Shown here: piece after piece, positions 13,726 through 63,904 of the stretch
How positions within the stretch are numbered: the stretch's first letter is position 1
How the letters are laid out: each line of letters starts with the position of its first letter
Assembly: GCF_016411825.1 (NCBI RefSeq)
Contig: NZ_JAEKMH010000001.1
Span: 1,302,001-1,366,000 of the forward strand
Length of the DNA stretch: 64,000 nt
Direction of reading: 5' to 3'
DNA from: Devosia sediminis
GTDB lineage: Bacteria > Pseudomonadota > Alphaproteobacteria > Rhizobiales > Devosiaceae
Notes under the pieces: generated by a model
Databases searched by the model: none
The model's input: only the letters and a program-made list of their open reading frames with translations
Told to the model about the DNA's origin: nothing
Made by a program: the position numbers and the translations under genes

Positions 13726-17181
<3,456 letters not shown>

Positions 17182-17254
17182 GTGCATCTCCTCGTCCATC
17201 CTTGGTTCACCCGGTGCGTCGGGTCAAACCACACTGCGGTCAATCCACAGGCGA

Positions 17255-17353
17255 TCAGGCGAACTTGGTGATGATGTCCATCCAGGTCAGCGAGCCGATG
17301 GTGAAGGCGCCGAGGGTAACGAAAGCGGCGAGGTCTTTGACGAAGTTGAGCAT
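17255..17353 (-). CDS. 32-residue hydrophobic peptide under an SOS-type promoter
   Basis: A short frame (ATG 17353, TGA 17255-17257) encodes MLNFVKDLAAFVTLGAFTIG followed by SLTW and a DIITKFA end. One hydrophobic helix of about 20 residues makes it a likely single-pass inner-membrane peptide. GGGAG lies six bases before the ATG. Upstream is a promoter with a LexA-type operator between its -35 and -10 boxes. It ends about 74 bases before the dnaE start and could be cotranscribed with it. Size, membrane nature and SOS control resemble known SOS-induced membrane peptides: SidA of Caulobacter (a division inhibitor) and TisB of E. coli (a toxin). That is an analogy; I see no sequence match. Function unknown. 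Confidence 0.65.
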   Translation of the reverse strand: MLNFVKDLAAFVTLGAFTIGSLTWMDIITKFA

Positions 17354-17382
17354 CTGGGTCTCCCGTGTTTCTGTGTTTGTTC

Positions 17383-17411
17383 TTATACGTTCGGTTTTTG
17401 TTCTCGTCCAC
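17383..17411 (-). promoter_or_regulatory. Promoter of the 32-codon gene
   Basis: On the minus strand a -35-like GTGGAC (17406-17411) and a -10-like GTATAA (17383-17388) are separated by exactly 17 bases. The start codon lies 29 bases past the -10 box. The whole LexA-type operator lies in the spacer. Confidence 0.6.
17389..17403 (-). promoter_or_regulatory. LexA-type (SOS) operator
   Basis: GTTC at 17389-17392 and GTTC at 17400-17403, separated by seven bases, match the alphaproteobacterial LexA operator GTTC-N7-GTTC exactly. On the coding strand it reads GAAC-N7-GAAC, and a third GAAC follows six bases later (17379-17382). It occupies the promoter spacer, the expected place for repression. 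Confidence 0.75.
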
Positions 17412-17476: not shown

Positions 17477-18718
17477 ATGGCGTTAAGATTCGGGACGTGC
17501 AAAAGCGCCGGCGGCCGATGCGGATCCCGGTTGGCGTGGACGTGTCCCGAGACGCGTGCGTCTCAGTATGGTGAGGGAAATAGAGACGTCGCCGCCTCGG
17601 GACACCGGTTTTTCGAACCGAAACAACCCCCATTGATCGCTCGTCGCCGGGGAATAGAAGTTTCTGTAATGCGCAGGTTCAGATGGCACTGGGTGGGGAT
17701 ATACGGGATCAGGTGGGATTCAGCGGGATTGGCCGGTTGTAGGGGAAATGCCGGCCCCTATACCGCCATCACGTTCGGCCCGGTTACGACGCTCCCTGCC
17801 GGAGGGGCAGCGGCGGCCGGCGTAGTGCCTATTGGGCCCGGGGCGGTGCGCATTGATTTTTCCATTCCAAAGGGCGTCGATGGCGCCGGCACTGGGGATG
17901 TTGTCGGTCCGGCTTCGTCGATCGACGGACAGATGGCAGTGGCGGACGGCACGACTGGCAAGCTGCTCAAGTTTGTGGCGCCGGCTGCCGCGCGGGCCGC
18001 GATCGGCGCCGACCTCCTGGGCGGTGTACGCAACCTCCTGATCAATGCCCGCGGGACCATCAATCAGCGGCAATATGCGAGCGGCGCCGCCACGGTCGGT
18101 GCGAACCGATATACCTTGGACCGCTGGCGGGTCGTCACCAGCGGGCAGAGCCTGTCATGGACCGAGAGCGAAAATGTTCGCACCATGACCGCGCCTGCCG
18201 GCGGCCTGGAACAGGTGGTCGAGGGAACCGCCACCCTGACAGGCGACCATGTTCTTACCTGGGACGGCACTGCCACCGCCACGGTCAACGGCACGCCCCG
18301 CGCCAAGGGTGAGGTGTTTGCCCTGACGGGTGGGGCCAATGTCACCGTCCGCTTCATAGGTGGCACCGTCTCTCGGCCGCAACTGGAACGGGGCAAGTCG
18401 GCCACGGCCTTTGCCATTCGCCTTCCAGGGGACGAGCTTTCGCTGTGTCAGCGGTATTTCGAAACCAGCGATGACGGCGACTTCATCTTCAGCTCAGATG
18501 TGAACGCCGGGGGCACCTACTACAATTTCTCCACCTTCAAGGTCACGAAGCGCATCGTTCCATCCGTGGTTCTCACCAATGTGGGGGCCAGCTGGTTCGC
18601 CGCCACCACGGGGGTCGTTGCCGCCTGGCGTTCCGGCTTTCGAGAAGCAAGGGCGGCAACCATTTCAGCCTCCGGTGGATACTTCGAAAGCTATTGGGCT
18701 GCGGATGCTGAGCTTTAG
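17477..18718 (+). CDS. Phage tail-fibre-like protein, probably a remnant
   Basis: From about residue 92 (17750) the 413-residue frame looks like the C-terminal part of a phage tail-fibre or receptor-binding protein. It has GPYTAITFGPVTT and SIPKGVDGAGTGDVVGPA collagen-like/linker text, the characteristic RNLLINARGTINQRQYASG near 185 with GANRYTLDRWRV, and QLERGKSATAFAIRLPGDE then LCQRYFE near the end. The first ~90 residues are Arg/Trp/Cys-rich and do not resemble tail proteins, although ATG 17477 has a good AGGAGAGG five bases upstream. The likely reading is a 5'-truncated tail gene joined to unrelated DNA. No other structural phage gene is beside it. Confidence 0.7.
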   Translation: MALRFGTCKSAGGRCGSRLAWTCPETRASQYGEGNRDVAASGHRFFEPKQPPLIARRRGIEVSVMRRFRWHWVGIYGIRWDSAGLAGCRGNAGPYTAITFGPVTTLPAGGAAAAGVVPIGPGAVRIDFSIPKGVDGAGTGDVVGPASSIDGQMAVADGTTGKLLKFVAPAAARAAIGADLLGGVRNLLINARGTINQRQYASGAATVGANRYTLDRWRVVTSGQSLSWTESENVRTMTAPAGGLEQVVEGTATLTGDHVLTWDGTATATVNGTPRAKGEVFALTGGANVTVRFIGGTVSRPQLERGKSATAFAIRLPGDELSLCQRYFETSDDGDFIFSSDVNAGGTYYNFSTFKVTKRIVPSVVLTNVGASWFAATTGVVAAWRSGFREARAATISASGGYFESYWAADAEL

Positions 18719-18778
18719 TTGAAGGGGTGGCTCACATCGGAGCCATCGCACTGGCCGGACCGAGCCGTGGATAAGTTT

Positions 18779-18824
18779 GCCCGTCGCGATCGGCGACGGG
18801 CGGCCGAGGTGTGGAAGCACCTCG
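18779..18824. other. Two hairpins after the tail-fibre fragment
   Basis: GCCCGTCGC and GCGACGGGC form a perfect 9-bp stem with a five-base loop (18779-18801), followed by GAGGTG-N6-CACCTC (18807-18824). Neither has a T-run. They fill the gap between the tail fragment and the methylase and may mark transcript ends or a recombination junction. Confidence 0.45.
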
Positions 18825-18933
18825 ACTGGGGCAATGGATTGGCGTCCGACCCCAAGAGCGCAACGAGACACTCTCTGCCCGCCACCCTCCGGAGAGGGCA
18901 AGGCCGGTTGAACCATGTCGAGACCAAGGAACC

Positions 18934-19734
18934 ATGTCTGATTTCGCTCAAATGCGAACCGTCGAGCCCACCAGAACGCCGGCCGGCTATATCGGCGGCA
19001 AGCGCAACCTGGCCAAGCGCATCACTGCCCTCATCGAGACCATCCCCCACCGCACCTATGCCGAGGTGTTTGTCGGTATGGGTGGCATCTTCCTCAAACG
19101 CCGCCTGGCGCCGCCTGCCGAGGTCATCAACGACTATTCTGGCGACGTGGCGAACCTCTTCCGCATCCTGCAGCGGCACTACCCGCAGTTCATGGAGACG
19201 CTCAAATTCCAGCTCTCCGGACGCCGGGAGTTCGAGCGGCTCAAGGCCAGCGATCCGGCGACGCTGACCGACTTGGAGCGCGCTGGCCGCTTCCTCTACC
19301 TGCAGCGTCTGGCATTCGGCGGCAAGGTCGCCGGCCGCAATTTCGGGGTCGATGCGTCTGCCACGGCCGGGTTCAACATCCTGACCCTGGCGCCGCAGCT
19401 CGACGCCATTCATGAGCGCCTTGCCGGCGTCACCATCGAGCAACTGCGCTGGCAGGACTTCCTGACCCGCTACGACCGCGAAGGGACGCTCTTCTACCTC
19501 GATCCGCCCTACTGGGGCAGCGAGGACGACTATGGGAAGGCCATGTTCGGCCGAGAGGAGTTTGAGGAGATGGCGGCCCGTTTAAGAGGGCTAAAAGGCC
19601 GCTTCATCATGTCGATCAATGACGTGCCGCAGATCCGCTCGATCTTCGCCGGCTTCGCCCAGGTCGAGGCCGCTACCACATACTCCGTACAGGGCGGCGG
19701 CGCCGCAGCTCGCGAGCTGGTGATCACCGGATGA
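18934..19734 (+). CDS. D12-class (Dam-like) DNA adenine N6-methyltransferase
   Basis: Transfers a methyl group from AdoMet to adenine N6 in DNA. From ATG 18934 (AAGGA three bases upstream) the protein is 266 residues. The AdoMet motif AGYIGGKRNLAKR is at residue 16, as in Dam/M.DpnII-type enzymes, EVFVGMGGIFLKR follows near 50, and the catalytic DPPYWG begins at residue 190. A longer in-frame ATG at 18811 gives an unrelated basic extension and is not used. No restriction endonuclease gene is adjacent, so this is an orphan methylase, commonly phage-borne. The target site cannot be read from sequence. The 3' end overlaps a convergent small gene by 11 bases. Confidence 0.85.
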   Translation: MSDFAQMRTVEPTRTPAGYIGGKRNLAKRITALIETIPHRTYAEVFVGMGGIFLKRRLAPPAEVINDYSGDVANLFRILQRHYPQFMETLKFQLSGRREFERLKASDPATLTDLERAGRFLYLQRLAFGGKVAGRNFGVDASATAGFNILTLAPQLDAIHERLAGVTIEQLRWQDFLTRYDREGTLFYLDPPYWGSEDDYGKAMFGREEFEEMAARLRGLKGRFIMSINDVPQIRSIFAGFAQVEAATTYSVQGGGAAARELVITG

Positions 19735-19969
19735 CGAGGCGTCCAGGCTCACTATTCGTGTGCCGGCCGGGCCCACTAGCGGGGCTCTCTACGATCGCCA
19801 CGGAAGCGGCAGGGCTTTTGCACCTGCTGCACCGGAGGCGACTCAGAACGTCCTCAAGTGTCACCTCCCAGCCCCGTTGGGCTGCCAGTAGTCGAAAGGG
19901 CAGGATGGTATTGGCGCCGGCGCTGCATGGGCAACTGACCTCCAGCCACCAACCAGTAAGTTCGGCCAT
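19724..19969 (-). CDS. Small four-cysteine (zinc-ribbon-like) protein
   Basis: An 81-residue protein starting MAELTGWWLEVSCPC. It has a CPC pair near residue 13 and RCSRC near residue 52, separated by RLLAAQRGWEVTLEDVLSRL, a layout suggesting a treble-clef or zinc-ribbon fold. ATG 19969 with AAGG five bases upstream is preferred. The frame is open 30 codons further up to 20059, but that extension is proline-rich with no ribosome site. I have the impression of similar small proteins in Hyphomicrobiales genomes and their phages, but cannot name a family. It is convergent with the methylase and divergent from the next gene. Function unknown. Confidence 0.6.
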   Translation of the reverse strand: MAELTGWWLEVSCPCSAGANTILPFRLLAAQRGWEVTLEDVLSRLRCSRCKSPAASVAIVESPASGPGRHTNSEPGRLVIR

Positions 19970-20134
19970 GGTCGCCTTAAGGGGCGGCTCGACAGGAAGC
20001 GGCGGCGGGTAGGCCGGAATCTCTGGGAACGGGTGAAGGGACTTCTGGCGACTTTGCATAGGCCGTGCATATCATGGTCGGGTGGAAATGGGGCAACAAG
20101 TCCGCCAAGAACTTGAGGCCCGACGGAGGGACAC

Positions 20135-21109
20135 ATGGACGGCCGGCTTAATCAAAATGGCATCCCGCATGCCTTTGATCTGAACGCTGAGTTTGTGATC
20201 AATATCGCCGACTATGACGGGCGATTGCGAATTGGCGAGGGCCCGTTCTACTTCGAAATGGTGTGGGAGGCCTTGGGCCCCGATCGCGTCCGAGCGTACA
20301 ACTCAGGGGAAAACGTGGTCGGCGTTGCTGTGATCAGGAACCCGCCTAACCCTTCTGACCTAACCACTGACTTGTTACGGGGGCTCAACTACACCTCCCG
20401 CCTGCGTAATGTCACAGCTGGGGAATGGGCAGTGTTCATGAACGCGGATGGGAATTTCTTGATCGCCCGAGTCCTGCAGCTGCAGGATGTAAATGAGGAC
20501 CAACGGATCCTGAACATCGAATGCCGTGTGCATAGCGTGGGAGCCTCTGGTCATGAAATACGGCCATCGTCGGCGCCGGGGGTGGATGCGATAACCTCGG
20601 CAACTGAAGGGGTTCTCGCACCATCCGGGGGTGGAGATTTGGACAATCAGGCAGATGTTGCGTACGACCTCTACGGCCAAGTAGCGGTTGCTGCTGCAGT
20701 GGCCGAAGTGGGACTGATTGAGGCATTCCAAGCCTTCGATAGCTCGCCCAAGACACTGGAGCACGGCGGAATGGGCCACAACATGCCGCCGCCGGACATC
20801 CTCGTCGATGAACAGAGCCGTAGCGACGCATTGCAGGCTCTCCGGTCGCTTCAAGACTTACAGGATACGCGTGACGGCACAGCCTTTGCCAAAGTGGTTG
20901 AGGCCGGTCAGCTACTGCTTAAGGCTGCACAGGCTCTATGGTCTTGGATTGAGCCACGCTTCGGCAAATTTGCCGATAGTTTCGCTGACACTCTGGGTAA
21001 GACAGCGGCATCCAAGACTTGGCTCCTCAGCGTTATGATGGTTGCAACCGGTCAATTGACGAAGGTGGTTGAGTTGGTCGGACAGCTGTTGCCCACTTGG
21101 CCCATCTAG
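20135..21109 (+). CDS. Uncharacterised three-part protein with GHNMPP linker
   Basis: A 324-residue protein with GGAGGG four bases before the ATG. Part one (about 35-140) is a compact beta-rich domain with FEMVWEALG, YNSGENVVGVAVI and LNYTSRLRNVTAGEWAVFMN; I recall this pattern from other uncharacterised proteins but cannot name a family. Part two is a low-complexity linker containing EHGGMGHNMPPPDI (209-222), a motif I recognise from hypothetical proteins of Hyphomicrobiales and their phages. Part three (230-324) is helical, with KTWLLSVMMVATGQL and a hydrophobic end, perhaps a membrane or pore-forming segment. No catalytic motif is visible. Local composition looks less GC-rich than neighbouring housekeeping genes. 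A sensor-plus-membrane-effector or a phage lysis role is possible; neither is shown. Confidence 0.75.
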   Translation: MDGRLNQNGIPHAFDLNAEFVINIADYDGRLRIGEGPFYFEMVWEALGPDRVRAYNSGENVVGVAVIRNPPNPSDLTTDLLRGLNYTSRLRNVTAGEWAVFMNADGNFLIARVLQLQDVNEDQRILNIECRVHSVGASGHEIRPSSAPGVDAITSATEGVLAPSGGGDLDNQADVAYDLYGQVAVAAAVAEVGLIEAFQAFDSSPKTLEHGGMGHNMPPPDILVDEQSRSDALQALRSLQDLQDTRDGTAFAKVVEAGQLLLKAAQALWSWIEPRFGKFADSFADTLGKTAASKTWLLSVMMVATGQLTKVVELVGQLLPTWPI

Positions 21110-21504: not shown

Positions 21505-22191
21505 TTACAGCGTATGCGGAACCACCAGCCCGCCCTTGAGCGTGACGATGCGGTCGGCACGGCGGGCGAGGTCGTGGTTGTGGGTGGCGATCAGAGCGGC
21601 AGCGCCTTCGTTCTTGATCAGGTCCTTGAGGGCCTCAAAGACGAGGTCGCTGGTTTCCGGATCGAGATTGCCGGTGGGTTCGTCGGCGAGGATGACGCGC
21701 GGGTGATTGGCGGCCGCGCGGGCAATGGCGATGCGCTGCTGTTCGCCGCCCGAGAGTTCAGCCGGACGGTGGCTGGCGCGGGGGGCGACGCCGAGAAGAT
21801 CGAGAAGTTCCATGCCCCGGGCTTCGGCGGCCTTCTGGTCCTTGCCGGCGATGAGCTGGGGCATGACCACGTTTTCAAGCGCCGTGAATTCAGGCAGCAG
21901 GTGGTGGAACTGGTAAACATAGCCAACGGTCGAGCGGCGGAGCTGGGTGCGAGCCCGGTCGCCGAGCTTGCTGGTCGGCTGGCCGACGATCTCGATTTCC
22001 CCGCCCTGCGGCGATTCGAGGAGACCGCAGAGATGCAGCAGCGTCGACTTGCCGGCGCCCGAGGGCGCAACGAGGGCCACCAGCTCGCCGCTCTCGACAG
22101 TGAGGTCGGCGGCTTCGAGCACGCGGACTTGGCGTTCGCCCTCGCCATAGTGGCGGTGGACGCCCGACAGTTTCAGATGCGGCTTACTCAT
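21505..22191 (-). CDS. lolD: Lipoprotein-releasing ABC transporter ATPase LolD
   Basis: ATPase of the LolCDE complex that extracts lipoproteins from the inner membrane for delivery to LolA. The 228-residue protein has Walker [12 protein letters not shown] near 43, the signature [14 protein letters not shown] near 145 and Walker [12 protein letters not shown] near 168. MacB/LolD-type subunits share this length. It overlaps lolC by eight bases, leaving little doubt about the partner. In related genomes dnaE normally follows at once; here about 4 kb of island separates them. Confidence 0.95.
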
Positions 22192-61747: not shown

Positions 61748-61762
61748 GTTCATCTCCCGTTC
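61748..61762 (+). promoter_or_regulatory. LexA-type operator upstream of parE
   Basis: GTTC (61748-61751), seven bases, GTTC (61759-61762): an exact GTTC-N7-GTTC. A TTGACT -35-like box begins four bases later (61766-61771). parE has, as I recall, been listed in alphaproteobacterial LexA regulons, which supports function. The operator is about 127 bases before the ATG. Confidence 0.65.
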
Positions 61763-61888: not shown

Positions 61889-63904
61889 ATGTCAGATCTG
61901 TTCGGAAGCGCCGCACCCTCTCCAGAACCGAAAAAGGAAACTGCGCCGGCCAAGCCATCCGCGCGGTCCGCTCCGGTAACCTCCGAGGCTTATGGCGCGT
62001 CAGATATCGAGATCCTGGAAGGGCTTGAGCCGGTCCGGCGACGGCCGGGCATGTATATCGGCGGCACCGACATCAATGCCTATCACCACCTCTTCGCCGA
62101 GGTGATCGACAATTCCATGGACGAGGCCATTGCCGGCCACGCCACGCGCATCGAGGTGCATCTGGGAGCCGACGGATACATTACCGTTACCGATAACGGT
62201 CGCGGCATTCCGGTCGAAAAGCATCCGAAATTCCCAAATCGCTCGACCCTCGAGATCGTCCATACGGTGCTTCACGCCGGTGGCAAGTTCGACAGCAAAG
62301 CCTATGAGACCTCTGGCGGCCTGCATGGCGTCGGCGTCTCGGTGGTGAATGCGCTTTCCGACGACATGGTCGTGGAGGTGGCGCGGGACCAGCAGCTTTA
62401 TCGCATCCAGTTCTCGCGCGGTCTCGTGGTGGAGGACGTGGTCAATGTCGGGCGCGTGCAGAACCGCCGCGGCACCACGACGCGCTTCCACCCCGACCCG
62501 CAGATTTTCGGGCCCACGGCACATTTCTCGGCCGGCCGTATCTTCCGCATGACCCGCGCCAAGGCCTACCTCTTCGGTGGCGTCGAACTGCGCTGGAGCT
62601 GCGACGAGAGCCTGGCCAACGAGGAAGTACCCGCCAAGGCGGTGTTCCACTATCCCGATGGCCTCAAGGACTACATGACGGCCCGCATCGAGGGCGAGAC
62701 GCGCATCACCGACGAAATCTTCTCAGGGCGGAGCGGCAAGCCTGGCAGCCATGGCGCGGTGGAATGGGCGATTGCCTGGACTATCGGCGATGGCGGCACG
62801 CAATCCTATTGCAATACCGTGCCGACGCCCGATGGCGGGACGCATGAAGCGGGCCTCCGCATGGCGCTGCTGCGCGGGCTCAAGAACTATGCCGAGCTGA
62901 CCAAGAACAAGGGCGCCGCCAACCTCACCGCCGAGGACGTGCTCACCTCCTGCGCGGCCATGCTGTCGGTGTTCGTGCGCGAACCGGAATTCGTCGGCCA
63001 GACCAAGGACAAGCTGGCTTCGGGCGAAGCCACCCGCATCGTCGATACGGCGCTGCGTGACGCCTTCGACCACTGGCTGGCAGCCTCGCCGCAGCAGGCT
63101 GGGAAGCTCCTCGACTGGGCCATCGACCGGGCCGAGGAGCGCCTTCGCCGCCGCAAGGAAAAGGAAATCGACCGCGCGAGCGCGACGCGGAAACTGCGGC
63201 TGCCCGGCAAGCTGGCCGACTGTACGCAGAATGCCGCGCAGGGCGCCGAACTTTTCATCGTCGAGGGCGACTCGGCCGGCGGGTCGGCCAAGCAGGCCCG
63301 CAATCGCGCCAACCAGGCGGTGCTGCCGCTGCGCGGCAAGATCCTCAACGTGGCCGGCGCCAGCCGCGACAAGCTGGCCGCCAACCAGCTCATCGCCGAC
63401 CTGATCCAGGCGCTGGGCTGCGGCACGCGCGATCGCTACGTGGAAGACGACCTGCGCTACGACAAGATCATCATCATGACCGACGCCGACGTGGACGGCG
63501 CCCATATCGCGTCGCTGCTGATCACCTTCTTCTTCCAGGAAATGCCGCGGCTGATCGAGAACGGGCACCTTTATCTCGCTCTGCCCCCGCTCTATCGCAT
63601 CAGCCAGGGCGGCAAGACGCTTTACGCGCGCGACGACGCGCACAAAAACGAGCTCATGCAGACCGAGTTCACCGGCAAGGGCAAGGTCGACATCACCCGC
63701 TTCAAGGGTCTGGGCGAAATGCCGTTCGCGCATCTGCGCGAGACCACGATGTCGCCCAAGACCCGCACGCTACTGCAGGTCAAGGTGCTCGACGATCGCG
63801 ACGTCACCCGCAGCACGGTCGACCGGCTCATGGGCAACAAACCGGAAGCGCGCTTCGAATTCATCCAGGAAAACGCCGCGTTCGTGACGGATCTGGATAT
63901 TTGA
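61889..63904 (+). CDS. parE: DNA topoisomerase IV subunit B
   Basis: ATPase subunit of topoisomerase IV, which unlinks sister chromosomes. The 671-residue protein has the GHKL ATPase (EVIDNSMDEAIAGHA near 75, GGLHGVGVSVVNALS near 140), transducer, and TOPRIM domain (VEGDSAGGSAKQARNR near 455 and MTDADVDGAHIASL near 530). Length and the absence of the GyrB insert favour ParE over GyrB. GGAAAG precedes the ATG 61889. A LexA-type operator lies upstream. The gene ends 96 bases before the window edge. Confidence 0.94.
   Translation: MSDLFGSAAPSPEPKKETAPAKPSARSAPVTSEAYGASDIEILEGLEPVRRRPGMYIGGTDINAYHHLFAEVIDNSMDEAIAGHATRIEVHLGADGYITVTDNGRGIPVEKHPKFPNRSTLEIVHTVLHAGGKFDSKAYETSGGLHGVGVSVVNALSDDMVVEVARDQQLYRIQFSRGLVVEDVVNVGRVQNRRGTTTRFHPDPQIFGPTAHFSAGRIFRMTRAKAYLFGGVELRWSCDESLANEEVPAKAVFHYPDGLKDYMTARIEGETRITDEIFSGRSGKPGSHGAVEWAIAWTIGDGGTQSYCNTVPTPDGGTHEAGLRMALLRGLKNYAELTKNKGAANLTAEDVLTSCAAMLSVFVREPEFVGQTKDKLASGEATRIVDTALRDAFDHWLAASPQQAGKLLDWAIDRAEERLRRRKEKEIDRASATRKLRLPGKLADCTQNAAQGAELFIVEGDSAGGSAKQARNRANQAVLPLRGKILNVAGASRDKLAANQLIADLIQALGCGTRDRYVEDDLRYDKIIIMTDADVDGAHIASLLITFFFQEMPRLIENGHLYLALPPLYRISQGGKTLYARDDAHKNELMQTEFTGKGKVDITRFKGLGEMPFAHLRETTMSPKTRTLLQVKVLDDRDVTRSTVDRLMGNKPEARFEFIQENAAFVTDLDI

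Follow-up and report, generated by a model that had tools for sequence, protein, structure and literature searches.

A conserved small-peptide gene before dnaE in Devosia sediminis and its homology with the peptide gene of the Caulobacter sidA locus

SOS-induced membrane peptides and the Devosia locus

The closest described relative of the locus considered here is SidA of Caulobacter crescentus (CCNA_02004), an SOS-induced, FtsW-binding division inhibitor of 29 amino acids. Other SOS-induced small membrane proteins include DivS, TisB and DinQ, and those of Escherichia coli, TisB and DinQ, are small hydrophobic peptides that act, for example, on the proton-motive force. YneA, SosA and ChiZ are likewise SOS-induced small membrane proteins. 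By description all six resemble the present, probably SOS-induced peptide, but they come from other bacterial groups or have other targets. In PMC4211646, SidA is described as stopping septation via FtsW/FtsI/FtsN, and the division inhibitors that various bacteria use in the SOS response as largely unrelated from one group to the next. Later models, not high-confidence by their authors' own account (PMC13396833), place SidA on helix 7 of FtsW. A further likeness is offered by sORF25 of the alphaproteobacterium Sinorhizobium meliloti, a short ORF in the 5'-UTR before dnaE1 that is reported among novel sORFs found by Ribo-seq (PMC10117765).

The DNA analysed, hereafter the window, is a 64,000-nucleotide stretch of the Devosia sediminis genome. 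Directly before dnaE it carries a 32-codon ORF (17353..17255) encoding the 32-residue peptide MLNFVKDLAAFVTLGAFTIGSLTWMDIITKFA, with the following features around it:

13726..17199, minus strand: dnaE (DNA polymerase III alpha), 55 nt downstream of the peptide ORF
17255..17353, stop included, minus strand: 32-codon ORF for a SidA-type membrane peptide (translation, family matches, pN/pS)
17359..17364, minus strand: Shine-Dalgarno sequence GGGAGA, with the ATG 5 nt further on, read from the sequence
17379..17382, minus strand: third GAAC half-site (GAAC-N6-GAAC), overlapping the end of the -10 and present in the family consensus
17382..17387, minus strand: -10 element TATAAG, 5/6 match; the operator-anchored consensus of 67 family loci has TAtAAG
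17389..17403, minus strand: LexA-type operator GAAC-N7-GAAC, GAACAAAAACCGAAC, inside the promoter spacer; the same motif precedes the organism's own lexA
17405..17410, minus strand: -35-like element TGGACG, 4/6 match; the family consensus has CTgGAC
21505..22191, minus strand: LolD-like ABC ATPase (Pfam ABC_tran), adjoined by a MacB_PCD/FtsX permease gene

The -35 and -10 elements are separated by 17 nt, a spacer that encloses the exact operator. A sequence-only reading of this DNA had proposed the ORF, its Shine-Dalgarno sequence, the promoter with its 17-nt spacer and the exact operator, and all of these were seen on the minus strand. It had also compared the gene with sidA, and the comparison holds in that the gene encodes a small membrane peptide, has a LexA-type operator that is conserved and lies close upstream of the replicative dnaE. 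Like SidA, the product is a small hydrophobic peptide with a LexA-type site upstream of its gene and dnaE directly after it, and the two share the N-terminal pattern M-x4-[KR][DE]-x2-A-x6-F. Unlike SidA, the window peptide has 32 rather than 29 residues and a C-terminal half of the W-x-D type, and the upstream neighbour in family loci is a lolD-like gene, as opposed to a nucleoside hydrolase gene in Caulobacter vibrioides.

The hydropathy of the window peptide is moderate (best 17-residue Kyte-Doolittle mean 1.56), and no family was matched in NCBIfam or Pfam (E 0.001) or in PHROG (0.01). An alternative in-frame ATG lies 20 codons further 5' and would give a 52-aa ORF; this start is itself upstream of the -35 and is therefore not usable from this promoter. 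A generic sigma-70 scan, which requires T as the last base of the -10, returned no promoter at the peptide site. The operator by itself was rejected as evidence, its frequency in the 64-kb window being that of chance: exact GAAC-N7-GAAC occurs twice as against 1.69 expected, and at least two copies were present in 50 of 100 shuffles. It rises above chance because it is conserved together with the ORF.

The downstream gene scored 1432 bits against the dnaE model NF004226 (cutoff 1002) and is followed by rpsB and then tsf; the error-prone dnaE2 was rejected as its identity, the corresponding model giving 620, under its cutoff of 939. A weak terminator-like hairpin (17250-17234) lies between the peptide ORF and dnaE.

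Conservation in the family and homology with Caulobacter

A protein search matched the peptide once in its own genome. Of the 136 family genomes 112 had a match, as did 74 of the 75 in the genus, the organism's own genome counted; a later profile search added seven family genomes missed before (G113, G120-G123, G128 and G130). Seventy family loci were extracted (the 30 best and 40 others chosen out of the 112 matches), and the peptide was found again in 69 of them, L041 being the exception. In 67 of these 69, dnaE lies downstream on the same strand; of the other two, one has no dnaE within the extracted stretch and one sits at a contig edge. The exact operator occurs within 90 nt in 55 of the 69 loci and is missing in its exact form from 14. 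Conservation in relatives, the check that the sequence-only reading had named for its own proposal, thus came out in its favour for both the ORF (112/136) and the operator (55/69).

Selection has acted on the peptide itself. Across 630 pairs from 36 genus loci, pN/pS was 0.26 in the peptide frame, whereas the two shifted frames gave 1.04 and 3.49. Variation in those 36 loci was greatest at third codon positions. The 32-codon ORF is a real gene. The distance from its stop to the dnaE start ranges from about 37 to 473 nt across family loci.

The family promoter consensus, drawn from 67 loci, reads CTgGACaaGAACAAAaa..GAACaTAtAAGAACa and comprises the -35, the operator, the -10 and the third GAAC; it was anchored on the operator, so that its GAAC letters are partly built in. 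In eight loci (L045, L050, L059, L060, L066, L088, L089 and L092) a second full GAAC-N7-GAAC occurs 21-27 nt past the first. Taken with the third half-site, these second operators suggest a tandem or cooperative mode of LexA binding.

The usual upstream neighbour of the peptide gene is the lolD-like gene. Both were found in 33 of 66 family loci, and there the lolD-like gene precedes the peptide by 97-1376 nt. The LolD-like name given to 21505..22191 is inferred from its FtsX/MacB-type permease neighbour. In the window this neighbour has been displaced by an insert on the opposite strand (17477-21109) that separates it from the SOS-type peptide gene. In the insert, a 413-aa ORF matches tail-fibre-like phage families, a D12-class adenine methyltransferase has a match of phage type, and for a 324-aa ORF no match was found; the insert is perhaps a phage remnant. 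An insert of such size is absent from the 33 family loci where the lolD-like gene was found, and one of these, L009, matches the 413-aa ORF weakly.

Comparison with Caulobacter was made at the sidA locus itself. The DnaE query came from G746, which belongs, like G561, to Caulobacteraceae, a family that taxonomy labels put in the window's class, and its best named match was a Caulobacter record at 95% identity; the best 80 of 191 relatives with a Caulobacter-like DnaE in named genomes were then used. A hydrophobic ORF of 26-36 aa, mostly 29 aa, lies directly before dnaE in 79 of these 80 Caulobacteraceae loci, and the sole locus without it offers just 65 nt of upstream sequence. Among the 79, the operator is exact in 57, has one mismatch in 21 and is neither in one. 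In Caulobacter vibrioides DSM 9893 (L280), the order is inosine-uridine (IU) nucleoside hydrolase gene, 29-aa ORF (L280 1358-1447) and dnaE. According to the respective papers, sidA is CCNA_02004 (PMC10769358), the nucleoside hydrolase gene is CCNA_02005 (PMC3667746), dnaE is CC1926 in an older tag system (PMC1839093), and SidA has 29 residues (PMC4211646). The 29-aa ORF of C. vibrioides fits sidA because locus-tag order and length agree, and it was identified by these two properties alone.

Profile alignment established that the two peptides are related. With hhalign, residues 1-17 of the window's family, counted from the start methionine, aligned with the Caulobacteraceae profile at a score of 22.2, whereas 60 column-permuted controls gave a mean of 8.6 and a maximum of 13.2, and the reversed control gave 8.1. 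The Caulobacteraceae set comprised 58 distinct peptides from 79 of the 80 loci, selected by a filter for FV-containing sequences; dropping this filter leaves the count of loci at 79. In a comparison with 1860 shuffled decoys, an HMM built from the window's order only scored all 58 above the decoys' 99% level, with a median of 20.7 bits against a decoy maximum of 12.4. The pattern [KR][DE]-x2-A-x6-F occurs in 140 of 173 distinct peptides, as against 0.18 in shuffles; by group it is found in 66 of 68 from the family, 57 of 58 from Caulobacteraceae and 17 of 47 from the order outside the family. These 47 peptides had been picked without sequence selection, and a different residue frequently takes the place of the K/R among them. 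The homology with the Caulobacter peptide is confined to the N-terminal 17 residues, and the C-terminal halves differ, with W-x-D in the window's family and FVWMM in Caulobacter; this divergence could be an adaptation to each group's partner. SidA had served as an analogy only in the sequence-only reading, and the data now give a homologue in the same chromosomal place.

Occurrence in the rest of the order and class

Wider occurrence was surveyed with a rule that makes no use of peptide sequence: an exact operator upstream of dnaE, a start codon within 20-110 nt, a Shine-Dalgarno match, an ORF of 24-45 aa and a hydropathy over 1.6. As the operator, the Shine-Dalgarno sequence and the hydropathy are all required, the resulting counts are lower bounds, and the window peptide's own value falls below the hydropathy threshold. 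The order survey started from 110 genomes; removing the organism's own, four from its family and three (G174, G213 and G268) already included as other loci leaves 102. At least 48 of these 102 carry such a locus, and 55 have the operator; dinucleotide shuffles gave a mean of 0.0 (2.2 with the operator), and the opposite strand gave none. The operator lies a median of 48 nt from the start codon in the order loci, where 38 of the 48 ORFs are 29-36 codons long. For the class outside the order, dnaE matches were read from 109 of 146 genomes (30 loci less the window's own, plus 80 further loci), and one proved to belong to the same order, leaving 108; at least 14 of them carry such a locus and 23 have the operator, with shuffles at 0.0 and 2.2. 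The strict rule found no such locus in 54 of the 102 order genomes and 94 of the 108 class genomes. A candidate is nevertheless visible in L107 and L152, which fall outside it, and in L376 the locus is shortened by a contig end, so that the scanned stretch is possibly misplaced.

The hhalign score of the window's family against the rest of the order was 36.9 (controls at most 12.1), and with the order HMM nine of the 14 class peptides found by operator exceeded the 99% decoy level while five fell below. As a check relying on sequence only, profile A1 was run genome-wide against 397 members of the order, and 27 weak matches outside the family were considered, from 24 genomes in which dnaE had also been located. 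Fifteen of the 27 are on the dnaE strand and no more than 1 kb upstream of that gene, a placement expected at about 1e-4 per match; two more are within 3 kb (1.7 and 2.6 kb upstream), and ten are elsewhere. The peptide had been thought possibly lineage-specific. Loci obeying the strict rule occur across order and class (48/102 and 14/108), and the peptide is therefore not lineage-specific; it also shares homology with the peptide of the Caulobacter sidA locus. Another family of genomes, f52, also has the peptide locus; its assignment to Caulobacteraceae was rejected from taxonomy labels. In L452-L455, from order genomes of only 1.3-1.4 Mb, the operator and a short hydrophobic ORF are still found upstream of dnaE.

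Proposed function and competing readings

It is likely that the peptide gene is the window organism's sidA, that is, that it encodes a LexA-repressed, damage-induced division inhibitor acting on FtsW/FtsI/FtsN; LexA repression, damage induction and inhibition of division are each probable on the strength of sequence comparison, and the divisome role is assigned because of the homology with SidA. The organism's own LexA scores over its family cutoff, and its gene, located some 30 kb away from the peptide ORF, is preceded by the GAAC-N7-GAAC site GAACATAACTGGAAC. An FtsW-type protein is encoded in the genome (E 1.1e-88), yet it falls under the model's own cutoff. In an undamaged cell, LexA would occupy the operator between the -35 and the -10 and block the promoter. 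DNA damage would activate RecA and lead to LexA self-cleavage, and the freed promoter would then direct production of a 32-residue peptide predicted to span the inner membrane once. The peptide would keep the late divisome inactive, as SidA does in Caulobacter, and septation would be delayed until repair was complete. Since dnaE starts only 55 nt on, the same transcript may include it and could also raise the replicase, a cotranscription against which the weak hairpin in the gap counts.

That same proximity to dnaE, together with the hairpin, lends itself to another explanation, in which the ORF is an upstream ORF or leader whose translation regulates dnaE and whose peptide is inert; the Ribo-seq authors (PMC10117765) likewise suggest that sORF25 could be a uORF. 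We regard this as quite unlikely. The peptide is under selection at the amino-acid level, the ORF has a LexA-type promoter of its own, and the gap to dnaE is so variable that it leaves no fixed coupling to the dnaE start; the two weak profile matches at 1.7 and 2.6 kb point the same way, although they are possibly not true copies. Nor is it easy to see ORF and operator both as products of chance, a hardly credible outcome: the operator alone does occur at chance frequency in the window, but the two are conserved together in relatives, with synteny and with shuffle controls that stay near zero.

An unlikely but somewhat more serious contender retains the SidA family and the SOS response and gives the peptide a membrane target outside the divisome, such as the proton-motive force, in the manner of TisB and DinQ. 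E. coli does have small hydrophobic SOS peptides that act so, and the C-terminal half is unlike that of Caulobacter; against this, the gene is both homologous to and syntenic with sidA, and FtsW is where SidA acts. A TisB-like toxin, which had also been entertained for this peptide, is not supported. Division inhibition by a SidA homologue accordingly remains the preferred reading.

Among the papers listed by a literature search, there was no report of SidA homologues outside Caulobacter, though the original SidA paper may say more. Through the locus-anchored family described here, the SidA of Caulobacter is connected with the order of the window, and a large bacterial group thereby gains a testable candidate division checkpoint. 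It is conceivable, and we lean slightly towards the idea, that SidA, rather than being peculiar to Caulobacter, represents an SOS checkpoint of long standing in the Alphaproteobacteria. A rapidly evolving peptide gene would be kept in a LexA-controlled sidA-dnaE unit, and translated sORF25-like ORFs in 5'-UTRs would be unrecognised members of this checkpoint family; sORF25 itself may thus belong to the SidA type. If this is true, one damage-induced transcript would both arrest septation and supply the replicase.

Apart from the operator of the peptide gene, the window has a single exact GTTC-N7-GTTC (GTTCATCTCCCGTTC, 61748-61762). It precedes parE (61889-63904) by about 127 nt; this gene encodes topoisomerase IV subunit B and may, judging from the motif, be a second LexA target.
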